From IMG/VR virus record IMGVR_UViG_3300025598_000162, positions 1 through 25,226 of that record: a DNA stretch of 25,226 bases; one strand, 5' to 3'. Of this stretch, positions 999 to 22,496 are shown in pieces; the first letter of the stretch is position 1; each line of letters begins with the position of its first letter. This DNA is from a virus. A model generated the notes under the pieces. The model did not search any database and was not told where the DNA came from. It was given only the letters and a program-made list of their open reading frames with translations. The position numbers and the translations under genes were made by a program.

Positions 999-1901
999 AT
1001 GGCTATTTCTCGTGCACAACTATTAAAAGAGCTATTACCTGGATTAAACGCTTTGTTTGGTCTTGAGTATGCTCGTTACGGTGAAGAACATAAAGAAGTT
1101 TATGAAATCGAAACTTCTGAGCGTTCTTTTGAAGAAGAAACAAAACTGTCAGGCTTCTCAGCTGCACCAGTCAAAAACGAAGGTCAAGCCATCGCTTATG
1201 ACAACGGACAAGAAGCATGGACAGCTCGTTACAACCACGAAACTATCGCTCTTGGCTTTAGCTTAACTGAAGAGGCAATCGAAGATAACTTGTACGATTC
1301 TCTCTCTGGTCGCTATACCAAAGCTTTGGCTCGTGCAATGGCTTACACCAAGCAAGTTAAAGCTGCTGCGGTATTAAACAACGGTTTCAATAGCCAGTTC
1401 ACTTATGGTGACGGACAACCTTTGTTCTCTACTGCACACCCATTAATCTCTGGTGGTACGAACGCCAATACTCCATCAACTCCTGCTGACTTGAACGAAA
1501 CTGCGCTTGAAAACGCTGTTATTCAGATTGCTGCATGGACTGATGAGCGTGGTTTATTAATTGCTGCAAAACCGAAGAAGTTGATTGTTCCACCTGCACT
1601 CCAGTTCGTAGCAACTCGTTTGTTAGATACTGAACTCCGTGTTGGTACAAACAACAATGACATCAATGCAATTAAGAACAACGGTTCTGTTCCAGAAGGT
1701 TATGCAATTAACCACTTCTTGACAGCAACTAACGCATGGTTCTTGACTACTGATGTTCCTAACGGTTTGAAGATGTTCGTAAGAACACCTTTACAGAACT
1801 CCATGGATGGTGATTTCGATACTGGTAACGTACGTTACAAGTCTCGTGAACGTTATTCTTTTGGTGTATCTGATCCATTAGGTATCTACGGTTCTTACTA
1901 A
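999..1901 (+). CDS. Major capsid protein, Mu gpT-like (HK97 fold)
   Basis: A 300-residue protein recognisable as the Mu gpT-like major head subunit. Hallmarks are an N-terminal region with YARYGEEHKEVYEIETSERS (residues about 24-43), the middle stretch PLFSTAHPL (about residues 141-149), and a C-terminal half in which a strand and loop region (KKLIVPPALQ, GTNNNDINAIKNN) is followed by the end DPLGIYGSY. Length fits the family (about 300). It would form the icosahedral shell. The ribosome site TAAGGAG precedes the ATG. The gene follows the putative decoration gene in one operon and is closed by a strong terminator at 1927-1956. Nine of 13 Phe codons are TTC and Asn is often AAC, in contrast to the TTT/AAT habit of the tailspike genes, as expected for the most abundant virion protein. 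No protease cleavage site or scaffold domain was identified. Confidence 0.9.
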   Translation: MAISRAQLLKELLPGLNALFGLEYARYGEEHKEVYEIETSERSFEEETKLSGFSAAPVKNEGQAIAYDNGQEAWTARYNHETIALGFSLTEEAIEDNLYDSLSGRYTKALARAMAYTKQVKAAAVLNNGFNSQFTYGDGQPLFSTAHPLISGGTNANTPSTPADLNETALENAVIQIAAWTDERGLLIAAKPKKLIVPPALQFVATRLLDTELRVGTNNNDINAIKNNGSVPEGYAINHFLTATNAWFLTTDVPNGLKMFVRTPLQNSMDGDFDTGNVRYKSRERYSFGVSDPLGIYGSY

Positions 1902-1926: not shown

Positions 1927-1956
1927 ATCCCCAGCTTAAAAACTGGGGATTTTTTT
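1927..1956 (+). terminator. Rho-independent terminator after the capsid gene
   Basis: An 8-bp perfect stem, ATCCCCAG (1927-1934) with CTGGGGAT (1943-1950), closes an 8-base loop. It runs straight into seven T residues (1950-1956). It begins 25 bases after the capsid stop codon and should end the transcript of 105-1901. Confidence 0.93.
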
Positions 1957-2082
1957 ATAAAAAAGATTGCACAAATCTATAGAAGTAGTAAACTAATAAC
2001 TACTGGGTGATCAACTATTCCACTACTGCCCCAGCAGACAATGCAATGATCGGAATAGTTACTTTTGCATAAGGAGACCATT
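1957..2082 (+). promoter_or_regulatory. Hairpin-rich leader (candidate structured RNA) of gene 2083
   Basis: A 126-base gap between a terminator and the ATG at 2083. AGTAGT (1984-1989) pairs with ACTACT (1999-2004). AACTATTCC (2013-2021) is the exact reverse complement of GGAATAGTT (2052-2060), and this 9-bp stem encloses a small hairpin CTGC/GCAG (2026-2029 and 2034-2037, loop CCCA). A second ACTACT at 2022-2027 could compete for AGTAGT, giving two exclusive folds. Because of the terminator upstream, a promoter is expected near the start. Candidates are TTGCAC (1967-1972) with TAAACT (1989-1994), which is weak, or the phage-polymerase-like core CTATAGAAG at 1977-1985. The ribosome site AAGGAGA (2071-2077) is left outside the stem. 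Function is unknown. Confidence 0.5.
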
Positions 2083-2796
2083 ATGGGTCGTAGTACATTT
2101 GATGGACCAATTTTATCTGGTGACAATCGTTTTGGACCACTTCGTAACGTAGGTTACACAGATTTAATTCAATCTGCATTTTTAGATTTTTCTGTAACAA
2201 CAAACAATACTGCCAATTATGGTGGTGGATCTGGTGTTTTTGTTAACGCAAACGGAATTCCTAATAGTGCAGCAACTATTTACACTCCACAATCTGGTGT
2301 ATATAGCACATCAGGACCAACAGCAGCAACAGCTCCAACGGCTGATGCTTCATCAACCGTATATCGTGGTGCAGTATTTTGGCTGCCATACTCTTCTAAT
2401 ATTACTGATATTATTCTTGATATTGGAACGGTTCCAAAAGATTCTCAAGGGACTCCAGTTGCTGTTACAGCAATTCAACCATATGTTTCTAATAACTTTG
2501 CAACATCTACTGGTGTATATGCAACATTTGCAAATATTTCTAGCCCAGCTGCTCAAAGATATACAGCAACTTATGTTGGTACACAGTTAGCGTATGCTAG
2601 TTCAACATTACAAGACGTTCAAAATTTACAGCCTGGTCAACAGCCTACATGGTTTTCACAAGTTGTTGTAGGTCTTAAAATGACTACTGGTGCTGCTGGT
2701 TTGTCTTCTGGTCAAGTTGAAATTACTGTTCGATATAATCAATTAGATATGAATATTGGTACAAGTACAACTTATCCATACGGTAACTTTGATTAA
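2083..2796 (+). CDS. Virion-associated protein of unknown function, expressed alone
   Basis: A 237-residue protein that I do not assign to a named family. It begins MGRSTFDGPILSGDNRFGPL and is rich in Thr, Ser, Gly and Ala, with alternating hydrophobic residues suggestive of beta strands. It has no signal peptide, membrane segment or catalytic motif that I can see. The start at 2083 is chosen over an upstream in-frame ATG at 2065 because AAGGAGA lies 6 bases before it. The gene is flanked by terminators at 1927-1956 and 2805-2828, so it should be a single-gene transcript, with a structured leader. Position right after the major capsid gene suggests a head component such as a decoration or stabilising protein, but this is inference. 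All ten Phe codons are TTT, unlike the capsid gene, so codon use does not argue for very high expression. Confidence 0.75.
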   Translation: MGRSTFDGPILSGDNRFGPLRNVGYTDLIQSAFLDFSVTTNNTANYGGGSGVFVNANGIPNSAATIYTPQSGVYSTSGPTAATAPTADASSTVYRGAVFWLPYSSNITDIILDIGTVPKDSQGTPVAVTAIQPYVSNNFATSTGVYATFANISSPAAQRYTATYVGTQLAYASSTLQDVQNLQPGQQPTWFSQVVVGLKMTTGAAGLSSGQVEITVRYNQLDMNIGTSTTYPYGNFD

Positions 2797-2804
2797 TAGC
2801 GTTT

Positions 2805-2828
2805 AGGGGTCTAAGGACCCCTTTTTTT
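2805..2828 (+). terminator. Rho-independent terminator after gene 2083
   Basis: A 7-bp stem, AGGGGTC (2805-2811) with GACCCCT (2816-2822), has a TAAG tetraloop and is followed by TTTTTTT (2822-2828). It lies 8 bases after the stop codon and only 18 bases before the next ATG. Transcription of 2847 onward therefore needs read-through or a promoter overlapping the terminator. Confidence 0.92.
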
Positions 2829-2846
2829 AAAATCTAAGGGGCTTAT

Positions 2847-5423
2847 ATGGGAATGAATTTATTAAATTTCTTTTCTGGAAACAACCAGAATAGTGCTAAT
2901 GGTACCAATCAACAAACTGGTCAGATGGGTAATCAAACTCCATCTACGGTTTGGCAAGGTATTGATGGGGCTGCTGAGTTTATTGCTCCACAGCGTTTGC
3001 GTGATGTAGTTGGTAAATTGAAAGTATCACAATCACAAAATATTTACGATGCAGACTTTGAGTATGGTACACAACCTTTGCGTTGGGAAAATTTTATTCA
3101 AAACGTATCAGGTAATGCATCTATAGTTCAAAACCCAGGTCTTGGTGGTGTAACCATGACTATTGGAGGTAATCCTAATATTGGCGGATCACCTATTCCT
3201 GGTGATATTACAATTCGTCAATCAAGACCATATCATCGTTATCAGCCAGGTAAAACTTTTTACATGGCATCTAATGTCAACTTTGGTGGAGCTGTTTCAG
3301 GTCAATTCCAGCGTGTTGGTATTTTTGATGATGCAAACGGCATATTTTTTATGCAAAATACCCCTAATGGAGCAGGCAATCCACAAGGAATGTATTGTGT
3401 AATTCGTTCTGATTCAGGTGGTTTGCCACAAGATACAGTATTTGATATGTCTTTATGGAATGGTAATAGAACAATTATTAATGCCATTGATTGGACAAAA
3501 GTTCAAATGATTTGGATGGAATACGCTTGGTATGGTGCTGGTGCACTTCGCTGGGGAGTGGTTATTAATGGCGAGCCTTGGGTATTGCATCAAGTTGGTA
3601 CTGGTAACGGTATTGTTAATAATAATCCACAAATTAAACCTTGGAGTCGTACAGGTAACTTGCCTGTTCGTTATGAACAACGTAATTCAAGTACTGGACT
3701 TCAATCTTTTATGACTCACTATGGTGTATCTGTATTGATTGAAGGTGGTATTGATAAACAGCGTGGATTTACTTATTCTTATGGTAATGATGCTGCAACA
3801 CAAAACCGTACAGTTCCATCATCATCTATTCGTTTCCCAGCAATGTCTTTCCGTATGAGACCTGTTGGAACTAATTTATTTGATAATACACAAACGGCCA
3901 TAACTTCAGGAACTCAATCTTCATTAACTATTAATGGTTCTGTTGGAACAATTAGTTCAATGGTTGGGCAAGGAAATAATGGTCAAGCATTATTAACATT
4001 TAGTGCTGCCCATAATTATGCAGTAACTAATACTGCTGCTAATTCTCCAGCTCAATACATAACTTTAAGTGCATTTACTCAAATAGCTTCTATTACTGCT
4101 TATACGATTAGCGGAACAACGCTTACGGTAACGGCTAATACAGGTGTTATTACTGATCAACAGGTATTATCTGGAACTGGTATTATAGGTTCTCCTACAA
4201 TTGTTAATCAATTAACAGCAACTGGATCTACAGTTGTAACCCCTACATTTGTAAGTGGTGGAACTGTTGGACAAAATGCAGTAATTTTAAGTGCTGGTAC
4301 AAGCTTATTGGCTGGACAGTTAATTTCTGGTACAGGAGTTCCAGCTGGAACATATATTCAACAAGTTATTGGTTCAAGTGTTATTCTTAGCCAAGCATTT
4401 ACTGTTCAAGCTTCTGGAACATATAACGTTTATACAGCTGGCGGTGTGGGAACATATCAAGTTAGTAGTGCATCAGCAATTGCAGGAGCAACAGGAACAA
4501 TTACTGCAACACAATCTTATGCAGCAAATACATATTTGATTAATAACATACCTAGTACAACTACAATGGTTATTCAAGTAGTTAATTTTCCAAATACAGC
4601 AACACCCTCTTCTGTTCCAACAGCAACATATTGGGCAGCAAATCAATGGGTAGGTAAATATGTGTATTACACAGCAAGTTTACCTTCAATTGCTACGATT
4701 AGTGCATTAACTGGACCAACACCAAAAGTTGCTGGTGTAAATAACTATAGTGCTACTGTTACATTCCAATCGGCTCATTATTTAAACACCAACGACCAAA
4801 TTATTATTAGCAATTCAAACCCAAGTGCTTATAACGGTATTTACTCTGTAACTGTATTAACGTATAACCAAGTGTCAATTAACTTTGGTCCTGTAAGTCC
4901 AGGAGCATATTCAAATAGTGCAACTGTATCTGCAAACTATACGGCTCGTATCACTTCAAATACAACAACAACACTTAATTTTGTTGATGTTGTTACTGGA
5001 AATCCATTAGTAACTGGACCATCAGCTGGTAATGCATATCAGATTGGTTTAATTAATCGTGGTCAATTATTGCCACAAACATTGTTAATTAACTCTTCAG
5101 CAACTTGTTTGGTGGAATTAATTTCTGGAACACCAACAAATGAAATTTCTTTAACAGGCGCAAATTTCATTCCTTTAAGTGGTCTTGGATCTTACAATTC
5201 TTTTGCGCAGCAGGATTTAAGCGCTACATCTTTATCTGGTGGTGAGGTTGTATACGCATTCTCTACAGCAAATAATGGATTGCAACAATTGGATTTGTTG
5301 AATTTTTTCCCTGTTGTTACAAACATTAAAGGAAATATACCAGACATTTTGACTGTTGCTGTTACATCAAGTGCTGGTGCTACTGTTCAAATTAACGCAG
5401 TATGTCAGGAAGCGATGGCATAA
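2847..5423 (+). CDS. Large virion structural protein with long modular insertion
   Basis: An 858-residue structural protein of a kind I have seen after the capsid gene of uncultured phages but whose function is unknown. Residues about 45-350 form a conserved body (QNIYDADFEYGTQPLRW; then IRQSRPYHRYQPGK and RVGIFDDANGIFFMQ). The last 100 residues are a conserved tail (SFAQQDLSATSLSGGEVVYAF, then PDILTVAVTSS). Between them, residues about 350-760 are repetitive beta-type sequence, including two degenerate copies of a module (around 419-466 and 474-545, core LISGTGVPAGTYIQQV) also found in 105-983 and 19141-21816. The ribosome site CTAAGGGG precedes the ATG, immediately after a terminator. The body-insert-tail layout suggests a surface-exposed or fibre-like insert on a structural base. 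A head fibre or a tail protein are both possible. Confidence 0.7.
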   Translation: MGMNLLNFFSGNNQNSANGTNQQTGQMGNQTPSTVWQGIDGAAEFIAPQRLRDVVGKLKVSQSQNIYDADFEYGTQPLRWENFIQNVSGNASIVQNPGLGGVTMTIGGNPNIGGSPIPGDITIRQSRPYHRYQPGKTFYMASNVNFGGAVSGQFQRVGIFDDANGIFFMQNTPNGAGNPQGMYCVIRSDSGGLPQDTVFDMSLWNGNRTIINAIDWTKVQMIWMEYAWYGAGALRWGVVINGEPWVLHQVGTGNGIVNNNPQIKPWSRTGNLPVRYEQRNSSTGLQSFMTHYGVSVLIEGGIDKQRGFTYSYGNDAATQNRTVPSSSIRFPAMSFRMRPVGTNLFDNTQTAITSGTQSSLTINGSVGTISSMVGQGNNGQALLTFSAAHNYAVTNTAANSPAQYITLSAFTQIASITAYTISGTTLTVTANTGVITDQQVLSGTGIIGSPTIVNQLTATGSTVVTPTFVSGGTVGQNAVILSAGTSLLAGQLISGTGVPAGTYIQQVIGSSVILSQAFTVQASGTYNVYTAGGVGTYQVSSASAIAGATGTITATQSYAANTYLINNIPSTTTMVIQVVNFPNTATPSSVPTATYWAANQWVGKYVYYTASLPSIATISALTGPTPKVAGVNNYSATVTFQSAHYLNTNDQIIISNSNPSAYNGIYSVTVLTYNQVSINFGPVSPGAYSNSATVSANYTARITSNTTTTLNFVDVVTGNPLVTGPSAGNAYQIGLINRGQLLPQTLLINSSATCLVELISGTPTNEISLTGANFIPLSGLGSYNSFAQQDLSATSLSGGEVVYAFSTANNGLQQLDLLNFFPVVTNIKGNIPDILTVAVTSSAGATVQINAVCQEAMA

Positions 5424-21869: not shown

Positions 21870-22496
21870 ATGAAGTTAGTAGACCGTACAGGGCAGAGGT
21901 TTGGAAGATTAGTAGTATTAGAACAGGCTGGTAGAACAGTAAGTAAAAAAGTATTATGGAAGTGTAAATGTGATTGTGGTAATGAAACACAAACAGATTC
22001 AGGCAGTTTAGTAACAGGCAATACGGAATCGTGTGGTTGTATTTTAAAAGAAGCAATTACAAAACACGGTGGATGGAAAAAAAGTTCTTATAATACATGG
22101 CGAGCAATGATAAGAAGATGCAATAACCCTAAAGATAAAGATTACCCAAAATATGGTGGTAAAGGCGTATCGGTGTGTCCTGAATGGTTGGATTATGCGA
22201 CTTTTGCAAAAGATATGGGTGAGCCTCAAGGTGATGAAACATTGGACAGAATTGATGTTTATGGCAATTATGAACCAAGTAATTGTAGATGGGCTGGTCT
22301 AACACAACAAGCAAGAAATGTAAGAGTTCGTGCAAATAGTGAAACAGGCGTTACTGGTGTTGTGCTTTATAAAAATAGATATTACGCAAAAATTACTGTA
22401 AAAAAGAAAAATTATTACTCCAAGGTGTTTAATACTATAGAAGAAGCTGCTGAAGCACGTAAAGAATTAGAACGCATACATTGGAGTATAAGATAA
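21870..22496 (+). CDS. HNH-type homing endonuclease-like protein with AP2-like domain
   Basis: A 208-residue protein. Residues about 7-57 start RTGQRFGRLVVLEQAG and hold a Cys cluster (C32, C34, C36, C55, C57). Residues about 66-142 form an HNH-like region: YNTWRAMIRRCNNP, YPKYGGKGVSVCPEW, then the signature LDRIDVYGNYEPSNCRWA. The C-terminal part, about 155-205 (TGVVLYKNRYYAKITVKKK, then FNTIEEAAEARKELERIHW), is an AP2-like DNA-binding domain. This three-part plan is typical of free-standing phage homing or homing-like endonucleases, whose role is to cut DNA and spread the gene. It interrupts an otherwise structural order and has its own promoter (21818-21846). Its stop overlaps the next ATG (TAATG). 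Whether it is active is unknown; the HNH metal ligands cannot be confirmed by eye. Confidence 0.87.
   Translation: MKLVDRTGQRFGRLVVLEQAGRTVSKKVLWKCKCDCGNETQTDSGSLVTGNTESCGCILKEAITKHGGWKKSSYNTWRAMIRRCNNPKDKDYPKYGGKGVSVCPEWLDYATFAKDMGEPQGDETLDRIDVYGNYEPSNCRWAGLTQQARNVRVRANSETGVTGVVLYKNRYYAKITVKKKNYYSKVFNTIEEAAEARKELERIHWSIR

Follow-up and report, generated by a model that had tools for sequence, protein, structure and literature searches.

The gene 32 message of phage T4 carries an autogenous leader pseudoknot before its ribosome site; the pseudoknot is bound by protein, and the gene encodes a single-stranded DNA-binding protein. Translational pseudoknot riboswitches of the preQ1-II and SAM-II type are compact structures whose 3' strand takes up the Shine-Dalgarno sequence. 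Mu-gpT-DE (RF03012), a motif reportedly described in a 2017 paper, is an Rfam candidate family of unstated function, typed by Rfam as 'Gene; sRNA'. The only mention of Mu-gpT-DE that PMC searches returned is a passage stating that its Rfam and ZWD alignments differ (PMC7657543).

The locus described here belongs to an IMG/VR virus record of 25,226 bases (the window, meaning the whole stretch of DNA that was analysed), which carries a structural gene cluster. The gap at 1957-2082 holds a real, conserved structured leader RNA, recognized by sequence comparison as a five-helix element at about 2003-2076. This element is absent from Rfam and is carried by a large group of aquatic phages.

Organization of the Locus

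The leader stands between a capsid gene and a cement-like gene, with a terminator behind each of them:

999-1901, plus strand: major capsid protein gene, Mu gpT-like (phrog_371, 3.7e-23; PF25209, 8.3e-15; PF10124, 9.3e-11)
1927-1957, plus strand: intrinsic terminator behind the capsid gene, an 8-bp stem (1927-1950) and a T tract; fold z -3.1
2071-2076, plus strand: Shine-Dalgarno AAGGAG as read from the sequence, 6 nt 5' of the ATG at 2083
2083-2796, plus strand: gene for a cement/decoration-like capsid protein of 237 aa, behind the leader
2805-2829, plus strand: terminator behind the cement-like gene (stem 2805-2822)

Elsewhere in the window, in the tail gene region, a 208-aa ORF at 21870-22496 resembles a homing endonuclease of the HNH/AP2 type.

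The proteins encoded behind the element belong essentially to one family: 201 of 209 are linked by BLAST, the window protein being linked to 200 others, and 186 of 209 show an F.G[PA][VI]-like motif at their start. One of them, in DSL-LC04, is annotated as 'cement protein'. The window's ORF gave no Pfam or PHROG family match in profile searches, and sequence searches of the PDB returned a single match for the cement profile (E 0.5) and none for the capsid profile. The predicted model of the 237-aa protein (pLDDT 72) weakly matches capsid chains of Pam1 (7eel_H, Z 7.2, residues 1-221), GP4 (8h89_J, Z 6.8) and KHP30 (7dn2_1, Z 6.8), with scores no higher than unrelated beta proteins can reach. 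For a cement-like role these modelled resemblances are suggestive, not decisive.

A Double Pseudoknot Conserved by Covariation

The five helices are mutually compatible and combine into a double pseudoknot, with the following strands in the window:

2003-2007, plus strand: helix a, 5' strand CTGGG, pseudoknotted with the loop of hairpin d; 100% paired in 73 sequences
2013-2021, plus strand: helix b, 5' strand AACTATTCC; 9/9 pairs changed on both sides, 94.5% of cells paired
2026-2028, plus strand: hairpin d, 5' strand CTG; CTG/CAG, CAG/CTG, CCG/CGG and CCC/GGG occur in relatives
2030-2034, plus strand: helix a, 3' strand (a') CCCAG, filling the loop of hairpin d
2035-2037, plus strand: hairpin d, 3' strand CAG, directly followed by a conserved AC
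2041-2046, plus strand: helix c, 5' strand ATGCAA, inside the loop of b; invariant in the close set
2052-2060, plus strand: helix b, 3' strand GGAATAGTT
2062-2064, plus strand: hairpin e, 5' strand CTT
2065-2070, plus strand: helix c, 3' strand (c') TTGCAT, filling the loop of hairpin e
2071-2073, plus strand: hairpin e, 3' strand (e3) AAG, the first three bases of the Shine-Dalgarno

Two 3-bp hairpins flank helix b: d inside the loop of b and e just 3' of it. The loop of d pairs with the upstream strand (a/a') and the loop of e with a strand inside the loop of b (c/c'), so that c' forms the loop of e exactly as a' forms the loop of d.

The initial annotation, made from the window alone, had pointed to the 9-bp inverted repeat that is helix b (9/9 paired) and to a CTGC/GCAG hairpin within it (2026-2029/2034-2037), which is hairpin d. 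Both are real and strongly conserved with compensatory changes in relatives, and its picture of a structured leader adjoining a ribosome site and isolated by terminators gains support from the conserved fold. Helices a, c and e, which are also conserved, were absent from it. Single-sequence folding gives leader z-scores of about -0.9, not beyond chance, so the window by itself could not decide; folding of this kind misses both pseudoknots.

Viral loci were collected by protein search, 80 with the ORF at 2083-2796 and 80 more with the capsid protein. Common to the loci fetched with the ORF is a block of about 75 nt that ends in CTTTTGCATAAGGA before the start codon; it is missing from one truncated contig and from L082, L090 and L093, where there is an insertion. 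A close set of 73 distinct sequences was chosen only by this 3' 14-mer and aligned without structure. Covariation, the check that the initial annotation had proposed for homologous leaders, is strong here. The window structure pairs in 97.9% of cells, a value that falls to 31-46% on sliding by 1-3 columns. Changes on both sides are seen in 12 pairs and 238 cells, and the covariation score is 0.364, compared with 0.132 +/- 0.007 in 500 shuffles. Covariation extends to all nine pairs of helix b. Helix d contains changes from U-A to C-G and from G-C to C-G, and a single compensatory change, CTAGGG/CCCTAG, is seen in helix a.

Across a family of several hundred relatives, all five helices show compensatory substitutions in the sequences compared. 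Helix a appears as CTAGG/CCTAG, CCGGG/CCCGG or CCTAG/CTAGG, and the 5' strand of helix c has 35 different first 5-mers in the wider set. A fold descriptor matches the window once (2003-2070). It gave 202 matches in the loci collected up to that point, compared with 2 in 3.9 Mb of block-shuffled sequence; because these counts are partly circular, the evidence to rely on is that of the swap, shuffle and slide controls. An independent test of the rest started from two further scans, whose 15-mer probes spanned nothing beyond hairpin d and strand a'. Among 163 sequences near the capsid gene, helix b reaches at least 7 bp in 65% (6% with halves swapped between loci) and helix c at least 6 bp in 57% (5% swapped). 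Helix e is fully paired in 89 of 112 distinct regions, compared with 49.2 +/- 3.5 (maximum 59) for shuffled partners, in a test that favours pairing somewhat by picking the loop register per sequence where helix c is not 6 bp; its types are CTT/AAG, GTG/CAC, CTC/GAG, CTT/GAG and GCG/CGC. A looser version of the helix e test is less clear (36/46, vs. 56% swapped), because CTT and AAG are common to many members. Pair counts from a MAFFT alignment of 43 diverse members were set aside in favour of the swap and shuffle controls, since that alignment misaligns helices a and c between subtypes.

Some members depart from this layout. Of 79 with CCGG in helix a, 71 carry a second CCGG before hairpin d (e.g., L028 3736-3760), which would give an alternative 5' hairpin in competition with the pseudoknot; the window lacks it. 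L565 (5473) and L568 (2250) have a variant in which helix a is ACTATAC/GTATAGT and the hairpin is CGA/TCG; it lies about 550-580 nt downstream of the capsid gene, with small inserted genes in between.

Predicted Promoter and 5' End of the Transcript

The sequence 5' of helix a contains candidate promoter hexamers:

1967-1972, plus strand: -35-like hexamer TTGCAC, 16 nt from the -10
1989-1994, plus strand: -10-like hexamer TAAACT, ending 8 nt before helix a
2001-2002, plus strand: transcription start predicted from the -10 position, 1-2 nt before helix a

Among 233 distinct upstream regions, 30% have -35/-10 matches of at least 9/12 5' of helix a, compared with 7% of shuffled ones, and for 42 of the 70 strong matches in relatives exactly 8 nt separate the end of the -10 from helix a. 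TTGCAC and TAAACT in the window fit this spacing, from which we infer that a host-type promoter is active here and drives the leader. An SP6/T7-like phage promoter at CTATAGAAG (1977-1985) was considered and rejected: the exact string occurs once in the window and varies among relatives, and it is the host-type -35/-10 spacing that is fixed relative to helix a.

The promoter bears on the switch that the initial annotation had proposed, in which AGTAGT (1984-1989) pairs with either of two ACTACT copies (1999-2004 and 2022-2027) in mutually exclusive folds. The strings exist at these positions, but 6-nt complementarities are common here (15 inverted pairs of at least 6 nt in 201 nt), and of 93 close relatives 16 have AGTAGT; an ACTACT partner is kept in 2 at the first site and in 3 at the second. 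AGTAGT overlaps the first base of the -10 and otherwise lies between the -35 and the -10; it is probably promoter DNA and not transcribed, because the RNA would begin at about 2001-2002, 3' of it. With the pairing not conserved and AGTAGT probably outside the RNA, the switch is rejected as hardly credible. Of the riboswitch-like or autoregulated leader, what stands is a structured RNA beside the ribosome site; the AGTAGT/ACTACT switch falls, and regulation is a matter for conditional argument.

A start 1-2 nt before helix a also fits an mRNA stabilizer, in which the locked 5' end would block 5'-end-dependent decay with no control of translation. The compact pseudoknot, the leader's own promoter and terminators, and a presumably abundant structural protein agree with this main rival. 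It leaves unexplained, however, the overlap of e3 or c' with the Shine-Dalgarno in many lineages and the recurring hairpins that hide the Shine-Dalgarno in pelagiphage forms, and we regard it as rather unlikely.

Distribution of the Leader and Inserted Genes

The element lies between the Mu gpT-like major capsid gene, always 5' of it, and the cement-like gene, in cultured phages as well. Among unbiased pattern matches, 175 of 239 have the capsid gene 5' and a Shine-Dalgarno and start codon 3'; the remainder are mostly contig ends or unstructured chance matches. The helix sequences are replaced in the cultured carriers, the Pelagibacter phages HTVC023P and HTVC027P and DSL-LC04. Many relatives have a c' or e3 strand that extends into the Shine-Dalgarno, and in HTVC027P c' is the CTAGG of CTAGGAG, that is, the Shine-Dalgarno itself. 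In Synechococcus phage MinM2 (L282), whose capsid protein is 72% identical, the gap at 1527-1632 has neither the window RNA nor Mu-gpT-DE.

Hosts span Pelagibacter to freshwater bacteria with only one gene context, the capsid protein. This uniformity, with no metabolic gene, argues against a small-molecule riboswitch, as does the lack of an Rfam riboswitch match; the initial annotation had likewise recognized no known class, and it was right in that Rfam scans give no riboswitch match at the element. In such a riboswitch, a pocket gating the Shine-Dalgarno would be made up of the bases that stay fixed amid freely varying helices (A before d, AC after d, GA before b), in an architecture like that of the translational pseudoknot riboswitches. 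Despite these fixed junction bases, the idea seems improbable.

Inserted genes occur at several of these loci. In L013 an HNH-like gene, read by eye, lies at 2503-3126 between the capsid gene and the leader, with its own ribosome site in a short hairpin of the CTGTGT..ACACAG type; similar inserts are found in L018, L024, L028, L077 and L081. At these loci the leader remains with the cement gene, which speaks against the RNA being a small RNA of its own or an element at the 3' end of the capsid mRNA, as the sRNA type and the name 'downstream element' of RF03012 and the position 3' of the capsid gene would suggest. A terminator and a promoter also separate the capsid gene from the element, which continues into the Shine-Dalgarno and start codon, and this possibility is very remote.

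Six related loci with a GIY-YIG-type insertion (L003, L004, L011, L082, L090 and L093) have no leader, which is therefore dispensable in some genomes. In L011 the homing-endonuclease-like gene, read by eye, occupies 1737-2324 between the capsid and cement genes. The stop codon of the inserted gene overlaps the cement start, so that translation may be coupled; these loci are natural leader losses.

A Probable Leader Control of Cement Translation

We consider the element to be a cis-acting translational control leader of the cement-protein mRNA, with a probability of roughly 0.6; it probably sets the timing or the amount of cement protein synthesis. The host-type promoter would start the RNA at about 2001-2002, and its first 75 nt or so would fold into the double pseudoknot around core helix b. 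The loop of hairpin d would pair with the extreme 5' end (helix a) and seal it. Because the 3' arm of e is the beginning of the Shine-Dalgarno, the folded RNA would keep the ribosome site closed, or nearly closed and strained, and the e/c end of the fold would then have to open for cement protein to be translated. The leader probably serves to tune the amount or timing of cement protein relative to capsid protein. As the trigger, the leading guess is autogenous control, with the phage capsid or cement protein binding the leader, which fits the single gene context.

Several lineages appear to hide the Shine-Dalgarno in a different way at the same place, which points to translational control as what they have in common: by eye, it lies in TTTCC..GGAGGAAA or TTAAGGAGACTTAA hairpins beside helix b. 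In the pelagiphage forms L300-L386 (e.g., L302, L304, L330), also read by eye, the Shine-Dalgarno has its own hairpin, ATTTCC..GGAGGAAAT or TTAAGGAGACTTAA, replacing c/e. Several points count against translational control. In the window only the AAG of AAGGAG lies in helix e, so these three weak pairs may leave the site just partly closed; repression is of no obvious benefit to a capsid protein made in large amounts; and the leader is missing at the six loci with GIY-YIG insertions.

A fuller version of the translational reading, tentative and on balance doubtful, is that an undescribed fold, with two 3-bp hairpins whose loops pair across a central helix, gates cement translation and that Mu-gpT-DE is its reduced form. 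If true, this may be the first described RNA switch that couples capsid assembly state to cement synthesis in tailed phages, in one of the most abundant phage groups of oceans and lakes. The balance of capsid and cement proteins in tailed phages becomes testable, and cultured members exist.

Comparison with Known RNAs

When the window and 23 other loci were scanned against Rfam at gathering and permissive settings, no family matched the element, except for RF03012 in the sister phage CRP-902. The RF03012 model has no match in the window or the close relatives L088, L148, L115 and L072 at E<=10, and the window does not reach its gathering threshold of 49 bits; two weak matches in the L100 contig (6370-6399 and 9096-9119, minus strand) lie away from the element. 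In CRP-902 and eight further contigs of sister phages, RF03012 is above its cut-off in the same capsid-cement gap. Despite its sRNA type, Mu-gpT-DE is probably also a cement-gene leader, and not a small RNA or capsid downstream element, because the GACAGGAGAUuaACAUG at the end of its consensus reads as a Shine-Dalgarno followed by a start codon. In 35 intermediate pelagiphage forms, the GACA..AGCCA.GA segment of Mu-gpT-DE occurs together with helix a and hairpin d as in the window and with a helix b that is shorter; RF03012 weakly matches two of these forms at the element (E 0.006 and 0.012). The window form and Mu-gpT-DE may thus make up one extended family, with the window form as its pseudoknotted long version.

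Both RNAs lie in the gap after a Mu gpT-like capsid gene in the same orientation and end in a Shine-Dalgarno and AUG; in both, AC follows a small hairpin and GA precedes the closing strand. However, Mu-gpT-DE is about 53 nt long and lacks helices a, c and e, whereas the window form has a long helix b and folds as a double pseudoknot. The outer helix of Mu-gpT-DE, CCUG/CAGG, also takes up Shine-Dalgarno bases; it is not in the window, where helix b ends 10 nt before the Shine-Dalgarno. Likewise, the GACA..AGCCA.GA segment, which runs from the hairpin to the outer 3' strand of Mu-gpT-DE, is replaced in the window by ACAATGCAATGA.

The likeness to preQ1-II and SAM-II lies in a compact pseudoknot whose 3' strand runs into the Shine-Dalgarno: the window element has a covarying 5' leader structure and, by covariation, the AAG of AAGGAG within its fold (e3). 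In contrast to these riboswitches, it has neither a sequence or covariance-model match nor a metabolic gene, and it occurs in a single phage structural context. With the T4 gene 32 leader it shares a phage mRNA pseudoknot before the ribosome site and a protein needed in stoichiometric amounts. The two differ in topology and in their gene, which here encodes capsid cement, and protein binding is known for T4 but only proposed here.
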